From assembly GCF_000504305.1 (NCBI RefSeq), contig NZ_KI632512.1, forward strand, positions 342,388-406,387: a stretch of 64,000 nt of DNA, read 5' to 3'. The notes under the pieces were generated by a model. That model ran no database searches. It had not been told where the DNA came from and saw only the letters and a list, made by a program, of their open reading frames with translations. This DNA is from Nitratidesulfovibrio termitidis HI1. Its GTDB lineage: Bacteria > Desulfobacterota > Desulfovibrionia > Desulfovibrionales > Desulfovibrionaceae. Position numbers and translations under genes: made by a program. Positions 12,533 to 19,652 of the stretch are shown one piece after another. Position 1 is the stretch's first letter; every line of letters begins with the position of its first letter.

Positions 12533-14236
12533 TTACAGGATGCGGAACTTGTGCACTTCGTTGGTGTGCCCGTCGATGACGTGCACGCCGCAGGCGATGC
12601 ACGGGTCGAACGAGTGCACCGTGCGCAGGATTTCCACCGGGCGCTTGGCATCGGCCACCGGGGTGCCGATGAGCGATTCTTCGACCGGGGCCATCTTGTT
12701 CTTGCCGCAACGGGGGCCAAGGCTCCAGGTGGAAGGCACGACCAGCTGGAAGTTGCCGATCTTGCCGTCCTCGATGCGGATCCAGTGCGACAGGCCGCCG
12801 CGCGGCGCGGTGACGAAGCCCACGCCTTCGGCCTGCTTGGGCATTTCCCACGGAGCGCAGATGACGTTGTCGCCCTTGGCGATGTTGTCCTTGTACTCCT
12901 GCAGCATCACGCCCACGTATTCGGCGATGACCGCGGTTTCGATGCCGCGCGCAGCCGTACGGCCCAGGGTGGAGAACAGGGCTTCGGGGCCCACGCCCAG
13001 CTTGGCCAGCACGGCATCGGTCACGGCCTTCACCTTGGGATGCCCCTGCGAGTAGGCCACCAGCACCTGGGCCAGCGGACCGGTTTCCATGGGCTCGCCC
13101 ATGTAGCGGGGGGCCTTCATCCACGAGTAGCGGTCGTCGCCGTGCAGGTCGGTGTACTTGGGCTGGGTCTGGCCCTTCCACGGATGGCGGGCTTCCGCGC
13201 CTTCGTACCAGCTGTGGCGCACGTGTTCTTCGATCTGCATCTTGTCGAACGGCTTCACGTTCTTGAAGTCGCGCTTGAAGACCACGCCCGGCTTGAAGTA
13301 CCGGCTGTTCAGGTCGTACTCGTCCTTCGGGAATTCGCCGAAGGTGAGGAAGTTGGTGGTGCCGCCATACTGCGACCAGTCCTTGTAGGCCGCGGCAACC
13401 ACCAGCAGGTCGGGGATGTACACTTCATCCACGAACGCCTTGGTTTCCTTCCACAGCGCTTCGAATTCGGCGATGCGCTTGGGAGTCAGGGCGTCGTAGC
13501 AGGTCACGCCGCCCACCACGGTGAACTGGGTGTGCGGGTTCTTGGCGCCGAAAACGGCCATGGCGCGCGCGGCCTTCACCTGCAGGCGCAGGGCCTCCAG
13601 GTAGTGGGCGGTGGCGATGAGGTTGGTTTCCGGGTCCAGGTAGTAGGCGGGGTGGCCGCCCAGGAAGTAGGCGTTGGTGAACGGGCCGAGCTGCCCGCTG
13701 TCCACGAAGGTCTTCAGCTTGTCCTGCACCGCCTTCAGGTCCGCCGCCGTGGTCTTGCGGGGCGAGATGGACGAGGCGACCTTGGCGGCCTTGGCCGGGT
13801 CGGCCTTCAGCGCGGCGGTCACGTCCACGAAGTCCAGGGCGTGCAGATGATAGAAGTGCACGATGTGGTCGTGCAGGTACTGCGCGCCCAGCACCAGGTT
13901 GCGGATGTAGGTGGCGTTCTTGGGAATGTGCACGCCCACGGCGTTGTCCACGCAGCGGGTGGAGGCCAGCGCGTGGGTATAGGTGCACACGCCGCAGGTG
14001 CGCTGGGTGAAGTGCTGGGCGTCGCGGGGGTCGCGGCCCTTCAGGATGATTTCAAGGCCCCGGAACAGCGTGGAACTGCTGTAGGCGTTCTTGACCTTGC
14101 CGTTCTCCACTTCCACCTCGATGCGCAGGTGGCCTTCGATGCGGGTAACGGGGTCGACGACAATGGGACCGCTATAGGAGCTCTTGGGCGTGACGGGGAT
14201 GCCGCCCGGAGCATTCTGGGCTCTGCAGCCGCTCAT
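12533..14236 (-). CDS. hynA: Periplasmic [NiFe] hydrogenase large subunit
   Basis: 567 aa. Catalytic subunit carrying the Ni-Fe(CN)2CO site and oxidising or producing H2 in the periplasm. The N-terminal Ni ligands lie in RTCGVC and the C-terminal pair in DPCIACGVH. Cleavage after that His would release the last 15 residues. It has no signal peptide and would be carried across with the Tat signal of HynB. The N-terminus is MSGC, the same first four residues as HysA of the neighbouring [NiFeSe] enzyme. It starts 57 nt after hynB ends, and the sequence is close to the D. vulgaris Miyazaki F enzyme as I remember it. Confidence 0.97.
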   Translation of the reverse strand: MSGCRAQNAPGGIPVTPKSSYSGPIVVDPVTRIEGHLRIEVEVENGKVKNAYSSSTLFRGLEIILKGRDPRDAQHFTQRTCGVCTYTHALASTRCVDNAVGVHIPKNATYIRNLVLGAQYLHDHIVHFYHLHALDFVDVTAALKADPAKAAKVASSISPRKTTAADLKAVQDKLKTFVDSGQLGPFTNAYFLGGHPAYYLDPETNLIATAHYLEALRLQVKAARAMAVFGAKNPHTQFTVVGGVTCYDALTPKRIAEFEALWKETKAFVDEVYIPDLLVVAAAYKDWSQYGGTTNFLTFGEFPKDEYDLNSRYFKPGVVFKRDFKNVKPFDKMQIEEHVRHSWYEGAEARHPWKGQTQPKYTDLHGDDRYSWMKAPRYMGEPMETGPLAQVLVAYSQGHPKVKAVTDAVLAKLGVGPEALFSTLGRTAARGIETAVIAEYVGVMLQEYKDNIAKGDNVICAPWEMPKQAEGVGFVTAPRGGLSHWIRIEDGKIGNFQLVVPSTWSLGPRCGKNKMAPVEESLIGTPVADAKRPVEILRTVHSFDPCIACGVHVIDGHTNEVHKFRIL

Positions 14237-14293: not shown

Positions 14294-15247
14294 TCAGTTC
14301 TGGTAGAACGGGGTCATGGCGTCCCAGAAATCGGGTTCGCTGCACCCGATGCAGGGGTGCCCCGCGTCCACGGGCCAGTTGGTCTGGTTGAACTTGATCT
14401 TCGGGCAGTTGTTCATGGTCACCGGACCCTTGCAGCCCAGCTCGTAGAGGCACCAGCCCTTGCGGGCTTCTTCCGATTCGAACGACGGGGCGAATTCGCC
14501 CGCGTCGAAGTGCGGCAGGCGGGGGCACTGTTCGTGCACGGTCTGGCCGAAGAACATGGTGGGCCGGTTCAGGCTGTCCAGTTCGGGCACGGCCTTGTTC
14601 TTCAGGTAGTACACGATGGTGCCGACCAGGTTGTACGGGTTCGGCGGGCAGCCGGAGATGTTGATGGCGTTGACGCCGAGGTGCTTCAGCGCATCGTTGA
14701 CGCCCTTGGCCCCGGTGGGGTTGGGCTTGGCCGCCTGCACGCCGCCGAAGGTGGCGCAGGTGCCGTACGAGATGACGGCCTGGGCCTTGGGCAGGATGCG
14801 GCTGCAGATATCCAGCATGGTGTGGTTGGCCACCTTGCCGTAGATGCCGTTGGCAGCCGTGGGAATGCCGCCTTCCACCACGGCGATGAAGCCGTGCGGG
14901 CTGTTGACGGCCTGTTCCAGGGCGGCTTCTGCCGCTTCGCCCGCGGCGGCCATGATGGTTTCATGGTAGTCGAGGGACAGCGTGTCCAGAATCAGGGTGT
15001 CGATGTAGGGTTCGAACGCGCGCAGCACCGATTCGGAACAGCCGGTGCATTCGGCGTTGTGCAGGTAGACCACGGACGGACGCCGGGGACCCATGAGCGC
15101 GCGGGCAACTTCCGGCGCGAACGCGGGGCCCATGCCCATGGTCACGGCGATGGCCGTACAGAACTTGAGGAAGTCGCGTCGAGACACGCCGCGTTCCGCA
15201 AGCCTTTCCTCCACGCCCTCCTTGCCGAGACCGATCGAGATTTTCAT
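14294..15247 (-). CDS. hynB: Periplasmic [NiFe] hydrogenase small subunit
   Basis: 317 aa. It has a Tat signal (SRRDFLKF at residues 22-29, hydrophobic stretch, processing near ARA at about residue 50). The mature part begins with the CTGC motif binding the proximal cluster. The C-terminal Cys/His residues ([28 protein letters not shown]) bind the distal 4Fe-4S and medial 3Fe-4S clusters. It passes electrons to type I cytochrome c3 in sulfate reducers. The start at MKISIG follows a strong AGGAGG. A 673-nt leader/intergenic region upstream carries regulatory repeats. Confidence 0.97.
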
Positions 15248-15410
15248 CCCTGCCTCCTTCGGCACGGCGTATCACCGTGCCTGCCCGCCGCCAGCGGCGC
15301 GGCGGGGTAAGGGTCGTACTGGTGCGAAAGGCCCCCCGGATGCGGGCGCTTCTGCGTGCATCCGTTTCCCGCGGCGACCTGTCCGCACGTTTGGCGGGAA
15401 CGTACAACAC

Positions 15411-15429
15411 ATTGAAACGTTATTCCAAT
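15411..15429. promoter_or_regulatory. Weak inverted repeat in the hynBA leader
   Basis: ATTGAAACGTTATTCCAAT is an imperfect palindrome (ATTG.AA arms), about 165 nt upstream of hynB in an AT-rich patch. It could be an operator or chance. Confidence 0.25.
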
Positions 15430-15620
15430 TGAAAATGCCGATGCGGCACACATTTCTGCATCGCGGAAGGGAATGGATGCGTACAATGCCAAGCGTGGAG
15501 CGGCTGGATGTGTGTTGCGGTCATGCAGTGAGGGAGAGGATTGCTGTCGCGGTATATTGTTTGTGCGTTCAACTTTTAGTGATGAATGCAGTTATGGGGT
15601 GTGTCGTTGCAATATAAAAG

Positions 15621-15651
15621 ACGTGTCACGTTTTTATAAAACGTGGCACGT
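15621..15651. promoter_or_regulatory. Twin 11-bp palindromes, candidate hynBA operator
   Basis: ACGTGTCACGT and ACGTGGCACGT, each of form ACGTG-N-CACGT, start exactly 20 bp apart. They flank TTTTATAAA, which could be a -10 region for minus-strand transcription towards hynB, about 370 nt away. The spacing of two helical turns suggests cooperative binding by a dimeric regulator. The second copy also reads as TGGCACG-N4-TTGT, a sigma-54-like element on the plus strand, but no plus-strand gene follows. Confidence 0.5.
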
Positions 15652-15818
15652 TAATTGTTGTAATTTGAAAAACGTATGCGCGTGTTCAGGCAAGCCGTGC
15701 GTTCCGCGCCCCGTGAGAGGGCGGCGGCGTCTTCACCAAGGGTGGAGCCCCCCAGCCCCCTCAGTCCAGACCCGACCTCGACCCGCGTCTGGCCAGCCTG
15801 TCCCTGTCTGCCCTGTTT

Positions 15819-15877
15819 GGCCGAGCCTGGCCGAGTCTGGCCGAGTCTGGCCGATTCTGGCCGGGTCTGGCCGGTCT
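15819..15877. repeat. 10-nt tandem repeat (GGCCGAGTCT)
   Basis: About 5.5 copies with exact 10-nt period and one or two changes per copy, starting about 45 nt past the stop of the hysA-linked protease gene. It is non-coding. Confidence 0.85.
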
Positions 15878-15920
15878 TTTCCGAACCGGTCGATCCCATG
15901 CGCGGGCCAGCCCGGTGGTA

Positions 15921-16400
15921 TCAGCCTGCCTGTTCCATTTCCGCGATGATGGTGCGGATTTCTTCGCGCGCCACCTCCACAAAACGCGGAAAGGCGGCCT
16001 GCACCGGCTCGGAAAGACCGATGTTCCAGTTCAGGAAGTCGTGTGGCTCCATGCCGACGACCTGCATGCGCGGGCGCGGACCGCGCAGTTCGGCCATCTT
16101 CAGCGAGTCGATGAGATCCACGTCGTGGATGGACAGACGCTGCTTTTCGTTCTGGACAAGGTCGTCTTCCGACAGCCGGTAGACGGTGCCGGGGGTGCCC
16201 TTGGCATGTACGATGTCCAGCACCAGCAGGCGGTCGTACCCCTCGAACAGGTAGAAGATGTCCTGGGTGAAGGTGCCGCCGTCCATCAGGGTGACGTTCT
16301 GCGGCCAGGTTTCCTTCATCAGTTCTTCCACGGCAAAGACGCCGACGCCATCGTCGGTGAGCAGGGTATTGCCGATGCCGAGTACGAGCAACTTCTGCAT
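15921..16400 (-). CDS. hysD: Hydrogenase maturation protease for HysA
   Basis: 159 aa, paralogue of the protease after hynA. It has the GIGNTLLTDDG loop, the LDIVHA segment and the GMEPHDF motif, which provide the nickel-sensing Asp/His ligands of the HybD family. Its position directly downstream of hysA suggests it removes the last 15 residues of the selenocysteine-containing large subunit. The cleavage context would be DP-Sec-LGCAVH. The start is the ATG of MQKLLVLG. The symbol follows use in D. vulgaris and is inferred from position. Confidence 0.85.
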   Translation of the reverse strand: MQKLLVLGIGNTLLTDDGVGVFAVEELMKETWPQNVTLMDGGTFTQDIFYLFEGYDRLLVLDIVHAKGTPGTVYRLSEDDLVQNEKQRLSIHDVDLIDSLKMAELRGPRPRMQVVGMEPHDFLNWNIGLSEPVQAAFPRFVEVAREEIRTIIAEMEQAG

Positions 16401-16746: not shown

Positions 16747-18279
16747 CTACTTCACTTCGACGACGGAAACCTTGCCGGATTCAGCGTGCAGCACGTGCAC
16801 GGCGCAGCCCAGTCACGGGTCGAAGGCGCGGATCACCCGCGCCACGTTCACCGGGTTGCTGATGTCCGGCACAGGGGTGCCGACCAGCGCGCGTTCCACC
16901 GGGCCAAGTTGGCCGCTGTCGTCGCGCGGGTTGCAGTTCCAGAGCGTGGCGGACACGATCTGGTAGTTGTCGATCTTCTGGTCCTTGATGTTGATGTAGT
17001 GGACCAGCGAGCCGCGCGGTGCCTCGGTGAAGCCCACGCCCTCGGAACTGGCGGGAATTTCGGCGGCGGCAAAGGTTTCCTCGCCGGCCTTCACTTCCTT
17101 CAGCCAGCGTTCGATGGCGGAGAGCATGTAGTAGGTTTCCTCGGCGCGGGCCACGTGGCGGCCCATGACCGAGAAGGCGGCGTCGTCGCCAAGGTCGCGG
17201 AAGCGCTTGGCGTTCAGCTTGAACAGGTCCTTCAGCAGCTTCTGGCCCACGGGCGACAGTTCCGGGTTGGTGATCCACATGCGGGCCACCGGGCCGGACT
17301 CGACGGCCTTGCCGTTGTAACGGGGGGCCTTGACGAAGCTGTACGCCCCGGCCTTGTTGGGGGCGGGCACCGTCTTGCCTTCCGAGAAGTGCAGGCCGGT
17401 GGTGGCGTCGTCGAACCAGGAGTACTTGACGTATTCCTTGATCAGCTTGGGGTCGAAGGGCTGGTCCTTGCCGTCGATGTACACGCCGCGCTTCAGGTGC
17501 AGCTCGGTCATGGCGTCGTTGAGCGGGAAGGCGCCGAACGAGATGCAGTTCTTGTAGCCGTGGCCGAACTTGAACAGGTCCTTGTAGGCCGCGCCCACGG
17601 TGTAGGCCACGGGCACGTATTTCTTTTCGACGAATTCGCGCACCTTCTTGAAGCGGGCGGCGTATTCGACAAGGGCTTCCTTGGTGGGAATCTGGGTGGT
17701 GCCGCCCACGACCTGGCCCTGCACGTGGGGCATGCGCCCGCCGAACATGGCGACCATTTCGTGGCAGATGCGGCGCACTTCAAGCGCTTCCAGGTACTGG
17801 TCCACCGCGGCGGCGTTGATGTCCTTGGGCAGGCGCAGGTCGGGCTTGGCGAAGCGCGGCACGAAGGGCGCGCTGTCCGGCCCCTGCACGAAGTCCAGGG
17901 CGGCCAAGTGGTAGAAGTGCAGGATGTGCGATTGCAGGTAGTTGGCGCCGAAGGTCAGGTTGCGGGTAAGGCGGCCGTTGGTGGGCACCTTGACCTTGAA
18001 GGCGTTGTCCAGCGCCATGCACGATGCGGTGGAGTGGGCCGTGGGGCACACGCCGCAGATGCGCTGCACGATCTGCGAGGCGTCGCGCGGGTCGCGCCCG
18101 CGCAGGATGGTTTCGAAGCCGCGATACATGCCGCCGGACAGGCGGGCGTCGACCACCACGCCGTTCTCGACGGTGACTTCGGCCTTCAGGTGGCCTTCGA
18201 TTCTGCTTACCGGGTCGATGGCGATGGTCGCCTTGCCGGTGGCCCCGGCAGGAGCGGCCTTGGGTGTACAGCCGGACAT
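16747..18279 (-). CDS. hysA: [NiFeSe] hydrogenase large subunit (UGA = selenocysteine)
   Basis: 510 residues including one Sec. The frame meets an in-frame TGA (16813-16815) and continues for 22 codons to a TAG, giving RAFDP-Sec-LGCAVHVLHAE and then a tail ending VVEVK. This restores the DPxxxCxxH motif that binds Ni, with Sec in place of the first Cys. RICGVC near residue 75 supplies the other ligands. The last 15 residues after the His should be cleaved. The N-terminus MSGC has no signal peptide; the D. vulgaris homologue is reported to be lipid-modified there. AAGGAGG precedes the ATG. A caller that stops at TGA would truncate the protein and lose the active site. Confidence 0.96.
16785..16801 (-). 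promoter_or_regulatory. Putative SECIS hairpin of hysA
   Basis: Beginning 11 nt after the UGA on the mRNA, CGUGCA-CGUGC-UGCACG forms a 6-bp stem with a 5-nt loop containing GU. Bacterial SECIS elements (SelB-binding) lie at this distance within the coding region, as in E. coli fdhF. Confidence 0.7.
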
Positions 18280-18308: not shown

Positions 18309-19262
18309 CTAGGCCGAGTAGAAGGGAGACTTGCCGTCGGGGAAGTCGGGTTCGACGCAGCCGATGCACACCGCGTTGGAGACGCACCAGTTCACGCCGC
18401 CGTTCCACTTGCGCTCGAAGCTGTCGCACATGGACATGGGGCCCTTGCAACCGATGTCGTAGCGGCAGCCTTCCTTCTGGGTGAAGGTTTCGCTCATCTT
18501 TCCGGCGTCGTAGAAGTCAAGGTAGGGACAGTTTTCATGGACGTTGCGGCCATAGAAGGGGGTGGGGCGGCCGTCGGCGTCCAGCAGCTTGACCACGTCG
18601 GCAAGACCGTCGGCCAGGCCCTTGGCCTTGATGGCGTTCAGCGCCACCACCACGGTGCCCACGATCCAGTCGGGATGGGGCGGGCAGCCGGGAATGTTCA
18701 CCACCGGGGTGGCGATGCCGTTTTCCTTGAAGAATGCGGATACCGACTTGGCGCCGGTTTCGCTGCCCTGCGCGGCGGGAATGCCGCCGTAGGCGGCGCA
18801 GGTGCCCACGGCCAGCACGGCGGCGGCGTTGGCGGCAACGCTCTTCATGGCGTCAGCCATGGAGATTTCCTTGTGGTGCGCTTCGCCGATGATGCAGTAC
18901 TTGCCGTCGGCCCCGGTGGGCACCGCGCCTTCGACCACCACGAAGTACTTGCCCTTGTACTGTTCCGCGATCTTCATCATGTGTTCCATGGCGGGCTCGC
19001 CTTCCCACGCCATGACGGTGGGGTGGAACTCCAGGCTGATGACCTTCAGCAGCACGTCGGCGATGGTCGGGTGCACCGAGTTCAGCAGCGACACCGAACA
19101 ACCGGTGCAGCCCTGGCCCTGCAGCCAGAGCACCGGGGGCCGTTCGCCGTTCAGCGAACCGGAAATGGCTTCACAGACGGCGGGGTGGAACATCTGGGAT
19201 ATCCCGAACCCTGCAACCGTACCTGTGCACAATTTGACGAAATCACGCCTGTTGAGACTCAT
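18309..19262 (-). CDS. hysB: [NiFeSe] hydrogenase small subunit
   Basis: 317 aa. It has a Tat-type N-terminus (NRRDFVKL, then a hydrophobic run). GQGCTGCS binds the proximal 4Fe-4S cluster. The C-terminal CPYLDFYD, CRYDIGCKGP and CIGCVEPDF motifs bind the other clusters. The second, medial cluster should be 4Fe-4S, since a Cys occupies the place of the Pro seen in standard [NiFe] enzymes (WCVSNAVCIGC against [12 protein letters not shown] in HynB). It precedes hysA by 29 nt in one operon. The start at MSLNRRD follows AGGAGG-CAGGG. Confidence 0.96.
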   Translation of the reverse strand: MSLNRRDFVKLCTGTVAGFGISQMFHPAVCEAISGSLNGERPPVLWLQGQGCTGCSVSLLNSVHPTIADVLLKVISLEFHPTVMAWEGEPAMEHMMKIAEQYKGKYFVVVEGAVPTGADGKYCIIGEAHHKEISMADAMKSVAANAAAVLAVGTCAAYGGIPAAQGSETGAKSVSAFFKENGIATPVVNIPGCPPHPDWIVGTVVVALNAIKAKGLADGLADVVKLLDADGRPTPFYGRNVHENCPYLDFYDAGKMSETFTQKEGCRYDIGCKGPMSMCDSFERKWNGGVNWCVSNAVCIGCVEPDFPDGKSPFYSA

Positions 19263-19454: not shown

Positions 19455-19469
19455 GATAGTGTGAAGAAA

Positions 19470-19497
19470 ATTATAAAAGTGCTATTGCTTTTGGCAA
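19470..19497 (-). promoter_or_regulatory. Sigma-70-type promoter of hysBA
   Basis: TTGCCA, a 16-nt spacer and a perfect TATAAT point towards hysB, about 210 nt upstream of its start in a locally AT-rich stretch. This is the best promoter match in the window. Confidence 0.72.
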
Positions 19498-19652
19498 TGT
19501 GCTACGCATAGTTCGGGGTGAGAGCATGCTTTTCTACCCGTGGCCATTGGAGATTTGTCTGAAATGGCCGCAATGGGGAAGGACAGCTGTTGTGCAGGAG
19601 CAGGGTGAAATGCTTGGGCAAGCATTGATGCGGGAAACAGCGGACACGAGAA

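Follow-up and report, generated by a model that had tools for sequence, protein, structure and literature searches.

Sulfate reducers choose among [FeFe], [NiFe] and [NiFeSe] hydrogenases according to the metals available, and how they do so is relevant to hydrogen cycling, corrosion and enzymes for biohydrogen. The stretch of 64,000 nucleotides analysed here (the window) carries hynBA and hysBA (Table 1), and upstream of hynBA it holds two copies of an 11-bp palindrome. We were interested in what these palindromes form and in which regulator would read them. Our answer is that the twin palindromes most likely form a single operator for NikR, the nickel-responsive regulator, with each palindrome supplying one half-site; NikR binding, dependence on nickel and the sign of control are predictions from sequence comparison. 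An operator at hynBA, together with related sites at hysBA and at [FeFe] maturation genes, offers one candidate regulator that can be tested for all three hydrogenases.

Table 1. Genes and putative regulatory features of the hynBA-hysBA region (window coordinates)
Feature	Position	Strand	Basis
hynA, hydrogenase large subunit	12533..14236	-	Best models below their cut-offs
hynB, [NiFe] hydrogenase small subunit	14294..15247	-	TIGR00391 above cut-off
Promoter-like TTTATA-18-TATATT (uncertain)	15611..15640	-	Consensus scan; shared-offset test did not confirm
First 11-bp palindrome (half-site 1 and flanks)	15621..15631	.	Exact-motif searches
Candidate NikR box, 27-bp operator, GTGCCAC-N13-GTGACAC (hynB strand)	15623..15649	-	Match to published box; best matrix score in window; dyad in 7 of 7 readable genus genomes
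Second 11-bp palindrome (half-site 2 and flanks)	15641..15651	.	Exact-motif searches
Hydrogenase maturation protease, NiFeSe type, next gene upstream	15921..16400	-	NF045519 above cut-off
hysA, [NiFeSe] hydrogenase large subunit	16750..18279 (end is that of the translated stretch)	-	DPULGCAVHVLH, in-frame TGA read as U (selenocysteine)
hysB, [NiFeSe] hydrogenase small subunit	18309..19262	-	NF045520 above cut-off; start taken at ATG of MSLNRRDF
Half-site pair before hysB, GTAGCAC-N13-ATAGCAC (hysB strand, direct repeat)	19479..19505	-	Second-best matrix score in window; 6 of 6 genus genomes

Twin palindromes upstream of hynB

The palindromes, ACGTGTCACGT (15621-15631) and ACGTGGCACGT (15641-15651) on the plus strand, enclose a central TTTTATAAA, and their starts lie exactly 20 bp apart, as the first-pass annotation of this DNA had it. 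The 4,257,954-bp genome has no other exact ACGTGNCACGT site; the reversed-pattern control gave three. Near-copies of the single 11-bp motif are not enriched in the window, with 16 matches at up to two mismatches against 35.2 expected from shuffles; the unusual feature is the pairing of the palindromes and not the single near-copies. The inner bases of the pair read GTGTCAC-N13-GTGGCAC on the plus strand (15623-15649), spanning 27 bp located 376-402 bp upstream of the hynB ATG (15247). The site is intergenic, between this start and the end of the maturation protease gene (15921), with both genes on the minus strand. A short tandem repeat of GGCCGAGTCT-like units, at 15820-15880, lies just beyond the protease gene and is absent from the aligned rows of congeners.

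A conserved 27-bp dyad

HynB is encoded in all eight genus genomes compared, at 98-100% identity, and the site could be read in seven of them (the exception is L103). In each of the seven a dyad of 27 bp is present at -401 to -410 relative to the hynB start, with the arms GTGCCAC/GTGACAC in the genome of the window, GTGCTAC/GTAGCAC in four congeners, GTGACAC/GTGTCAC in one, and GTGCCAC/ATGGCAC, with one mismatch to the pattern, in another. The arms agree fully as inverted repeats in five genomes and with one mismatch in two, and they change together; 9 of 14 arm positions are invariant, compared with 3 of 13 in the spacer. Conservation in close relatives, on which the first-pass annotation had let its proposal depend, is found for this dyad. 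The same annotation had treated the two 11-bp palindromes as the unit, and this we reject: what the congeners have retained is the 27-bp dyad, the 11-mers as an exact pair being confined, among the seven readable genomes, to the genome of the window, and the GTGCTAC/GTAGCAC arms are not self-palindromic. Because the arms vary while the dyad is conserved, the exact twin 11-mers are best read as a conserved 27-bp operator at its most symmetric. With the 420-bp region upstream of hynB as query, BLAST gave no match at E 0.1 among 46 loci other than the eight hynB regions of the genus.

Co-varying arms also suit an RNA stem, and a terminator-like stem of 15 pairs can be drawn on the plus strand (15620-15652), with four such sites in the region against 1.0 expected. 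It is nevertheless very unlikely that the inverted repeat acts as an RNA hairpin, be it a terminator or a leader element, instead of a protein-binding site in the DNA. The plus strand has no annotated gene ending there, the flanking genes being both on the minus strand, and no Rfam family matched positions 14800-16400 to an E value of 1. Furthermore, the arms keep the letters of the NikR half-site, and the sites before hysB, hydG and the nuoA-like gene described below are direct repeats, from which no stem is possible.

Resemblance to known NikR operators

The NikR box of delta-proteobacteria is given in PMC545781 as GTGTTAC-[N13/14]-GTAACAC, located before nickel transporters and one [FeFe] hydrogenase operon, that of a periplasmic enzyme; its arms occur in either inverted orientation, and direct repeats are absent from the NikR table of that paper. 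Compared with this box, GTGTCAC in the window has one difference and GTGGCAC two, and the GTGCTAC and GTAGCAC arms of the four congeners have one each. The gap of 13 bp in the window agrees with the published gap of 13 or 14 bp (centres 20-21 bp apart). The two operators share the GTRNYAC half-site, the 13-bp gap, the inverted arms and their occurrence in sulfate-reducing delta-proteobacteria. They differ in that the arms here are GTGNCAC, each half being self-palindromic, and in that the target is a [NiFe] hydrogenase, whereas the D. vulgaris NikR sites listed in PMC545781 are those of nikMQO and nikK only, with none at hyn.

The H. pylori operator, with TRTTA and TAWTA 15 nt apart (PMC5385501), has the same TRNYA core (its half-sites are of the form TRWYA) and a 20-nt distance between half-site centres, and is taken to bind one tetramer on two half-operators two helical turns apart. 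The operator described here differs by the outer G and C of its half-site and by its GC-rich arms, and the H. pylori targets are other genes, hydA not being confirmed among them in that study. The E. coli operator GTATGA-N16-TCATAC, which is bound by Ni(II)-NikR (PMC7055735), is likewise palindromic with two half-sites, but its arms are of another sequence and not self-palindromic, and its target is nikABCDE.

A NikR with the nickel ligands is encoded in the same genome. Its single gene (one NikR_C match, above the cut-off for NF003381) specifies a protein that matches 2bj1 at E 2.1e-45 and the E. coli-type 1q5v at 1.3e-29, and its His79, His90, His92 and Cys98 align with the E. coli nickel ligands His76, His87, His89 and Cys95. 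The nikM/CbiM gene of this genome has GTGGCACGTTGACGCTCCGTGTGGCAT at -108, with one mismatch and a score of 10.4 in the matrix described below (1 of 60 shuffles as good). Within the family, a NikR match is present in 50 of 59 genomes. The three hynB loci that come from genomes lacking one score 2.6, 1.2 and 2.9, two of these genomes being incomplete (89% and 67%) and one region only 295 bp long, and these low scores slightly favour the NikR reading.

The scoring matrix was derived from eight arm pairs taken from Table 4 of PMC545781, with a single entry for three D. psychrophila sites that are identical. Across the window the twin pair scores best (17.4; next 10.2), and this score is reached in 1 of 60 dinucleotide shuffles of the 500-bp upstream region. 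Taken alone, the site is notable but not overwhelming; it is more than chance because it is conserved in relatives. A chance pair without function would suit that one shuffle and the lack of enrichment of single near-copies, but we give this reading almost no credence, as the dyad is present in all seven readable genus genomes despite a variable spacer and recurs outside the genus.

Other Desulfovibrio operators printed in PMC545781 were compared with the site. The arms of the Fur and Zur operators (GATAATGATnATCATTATC; ATGCAACnnnGTTGCAT) are absent from it, and the first-pass view that the motif is neither Fur nor HcpR agrees with the consensus printed there, which does not fit. For ModE, whose operator is cgGTCACg-[N14]-cGTGACCg in the same source, the spacing is wrong, GTCAC and GTGGC being 12 bp apart here and not 16. 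In addition, four of the seven congeners have GTGCTAC/GTAGCAC arms without GTCAC. The annotation had likewise not recognised the motif as Rex.

Control of a Ni-Fe hydrogenase by NikR is not a new idea, having been predicted previously according to PMC2667541 (its reference 47). Our literature search recognised no paper describing a NikR site before hynBA or hysBA, and the consulted parts of PMC5317091 and PMC10102598 contain nothing on hyn or hys. The operator is of the known delta-proteobacterial NikR kind, at a target absent from the published lists consulted.

Sites beyond the genus

We scanned hynB regions outside the genus with the same matrix, using score thresholds of 11, 13 and 14. From 54 loci, the 8 genus loci, the second hynB copies of the genus (L119 and L120) and L027 (97 bp upstream) were removed, leaving 43, two of them copies from one genome; the last 500 bp upstream were scanned, some regions being shorter. 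Scores of at least 13 were obtained in 11 of the 43 regions, compared with a mean of 1.7 for 300 permuted matrices, none of which reached 11, and the other 32 regions lack a strong site. The 11 regions were found with gaps of 13/14; thirteen other gap pairs yielded 0-4. Lowering the threshold to 11 gave 14 regions (permuted mean 6.7; 12 of 300 matrices reach 14), and raising it to 14 gave 10 (permuted mean 1.9; 7 of 300 reach 10). Among 45 nikM regions, 7 scored at least 13 (mean 1.3, reached by 2 of 299 permuted matrices) with the remaining 38 below, and 11 scored at least 11 (permuted mean 4.4; 14 of 300 reach this number).

Named HynB loci were scanned over 560 bp, with positions counted from the start of the match, including matches that start after residue 1. 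Scores of at least 13 occurred in 14 of these 78, which were drawn from the best 80 of 588. Among the 14 are Nitratidesulfovibrio liaohensis, N. oxamicus and Desulfovibrio sp. A2, which have the same sites as three of the genus genomes; another five loci, one of them from a Humidesulfovibrio, have the site at -93. The second hynB of the genome of the window (L119) has a candidate site, GTAACACGTTATCCTATTTTGTATCCC, about 500 bp upstream (score 14.5; 0 of 60 shuffles), and the second hynB of a congener (L120) has a weak one at the equivalent place (7.3; 6 of 60 shuffles).

Related half-site pairs in the genus

The first-pass annotation had proposed that the palindromes could explain how hynBA is switched relative to hysBA. 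Upstream of hysB, 217 bp from its ATG (19262), lies a pair of half-sites in another arrangement, and some 20 bp beyond it there is a third, weaker half-site (direct repeats within 19459-19505). We obtained eight hysB regions, six of them from the genus, and the pair is GTARCAC-N13/14-ATARCAC in all six, with R identical in both arms of each genome. Outside the genus, L245 has a similar score and L244 has no site. Since hysBA also carries a conserved pair of half-sites similar to those at hynBA, one regulator may control both operons, acting on inverted arms at hynBA and on direct repeats at hysBA.

Across the eight genus genomes, GTRNYAC-N13-GTRNYAC has 21 exact matches. Their number is uninformative because the reversed pattern has 31 forward matches, and the genus-wide argument rests on where the sites are placed: six at hynB, eight at a nuoA-like gene, five at TM1266 and two within long ORFs. 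At TM1266, which is above its NCBIfam cut-off, hydG is next in the stretch for four of the five sites, while the fifth (L005) belongs to a second, partial copy in the genome of the window; neither the HydG fragment nor the NuoA-like protein reaches its cut-off. A direct repeat GTRRCAC-N13-GTRRCAC precedes the nuoA-like gene in all eight genomes (L007 1501-1527; L219, L221, L222, L224, L225, L227 and L247), seven of them with TTGACA in the middle. Counting both genes, TTGACA is found mid-site in 12 of 13 cases, the first listing of site contexts having held only those with TTGACA; resembling a -35 element, it would suit repression at these genes. Half-sites occur before TM1266 and hydG in L004 and L005 (G000:C1:157964 and 341730), and L005, about 650 bp outside the left end of the window, holds the partial second copy of the promoter and the TM1266 gene.

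Less expected are the direct repeats found at hysBA, TM1266-hydG and the nuoA-like operon, and these may be sites of another regulator. One could imagine a hydrogenase-dedicated regulator, responding to H2, selenium or redox state, that reads GTRNYAC 20 bp apart at hynBA, hysBA, TM1266-hydG and the nuoA-like operon and leaves only nikM to NikR. The genus targets are indeed mostly hydrogen-metabolism genes, direct repeats are missing from the NikR table of PMC545781, and the nikM site of the genome itself is weaker; this genome (G000) and G010 combine strong hynB sites with nikM scores of 10.4 and 10.9. Such a regulator is nonetheless unlikely. Although the matrix was built from NikR sites and nothing else, it singles out hynB regions at the spacing typical of NikR. 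The published NikR sites include one at a hydrogenase, and their arms are found in two orientations (PMC545781). Several genomes, moreover, have sites at both hynB and nikM, with G038, G051 and G013 scoring above 13 at each.

Returning to NikR, we tentatively suggest a wider role, for which the odds are rather against than for: beyond nickel uptake, hydrogen metabolism in this genus might be governed by NikR or by a factor with the same half-site specificity. The GTRNYAC half-sites, spaced by 20 bp, would then act in inverted orientation at [NiFe] hynBA and in direct orientation at [NiFeSe] hysBA, at the [FeFe]-maturation operon TM1266-hydG and at the nuoA-like operon. How the arms are arranged would set the response, and nickel supply would thereby decide which hydrogenase is made.

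Possible mode of control at hynBA

Under nickel-replete conditions, the NikR tetramer would load Ni(II), and each of its two DNA-binding dimers could then dock on one GTRNYAC half-site, two helical turns apart on the same face of the DNA. The near-palindromic half-sites would suit the two-fold symmetry of each dimer. Bound NikR would be expected to change transcription of hynBA, and of the selenium or nickel response that the first-pass annotation had entertained, nickel is the likely signal.

The same annotation had seen a cooperative operator over a -10 box. An operator of two half-sites with two-turn spacing is very probably present; the central TATAAA occurs in only two of the seven readable genus genomes and so is not a conserved -10 box. 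A promoter-like TTTATA-18-TATATT does overlap the operator and is the sole such match near the site (1 found against 0.4 in shuffles). A shared -10 position downstream of 18 hynB boxes was not detected, the best offset, 6, giving 2.16 compared with 2.51 for the control facing away from the gene.

Repression, with RNA polymerase hindered, appears the more likely sign of control, activation being a less likely but serious alternative. Repression is favoured because NikR is classically a repressor, the promoter-like match overlaps the site and the related sites cover TTGACA; it is disfavoured because HynAB needs nickel, nickel reportedly raised HynAB in D. vulgaris and a shared -10 position was not detected. 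A rise of HynAB with nickel does not suit simple repression.

Because the leader between the site and hynB is long in the genus and its last 200 bp are highly conserved, a second promoter nearer the gene is possible. Within a highly conserved block of the leader, at 15411-15429, lies a second inverted repeat, ATTGGAATAACGTTTCAAT on the hynB strand. Its pattern, ATTGRAAN5TTYCAAT, has one site per genome in all eight genus genomes, at hynB, and may mark the core promoter or another operator.
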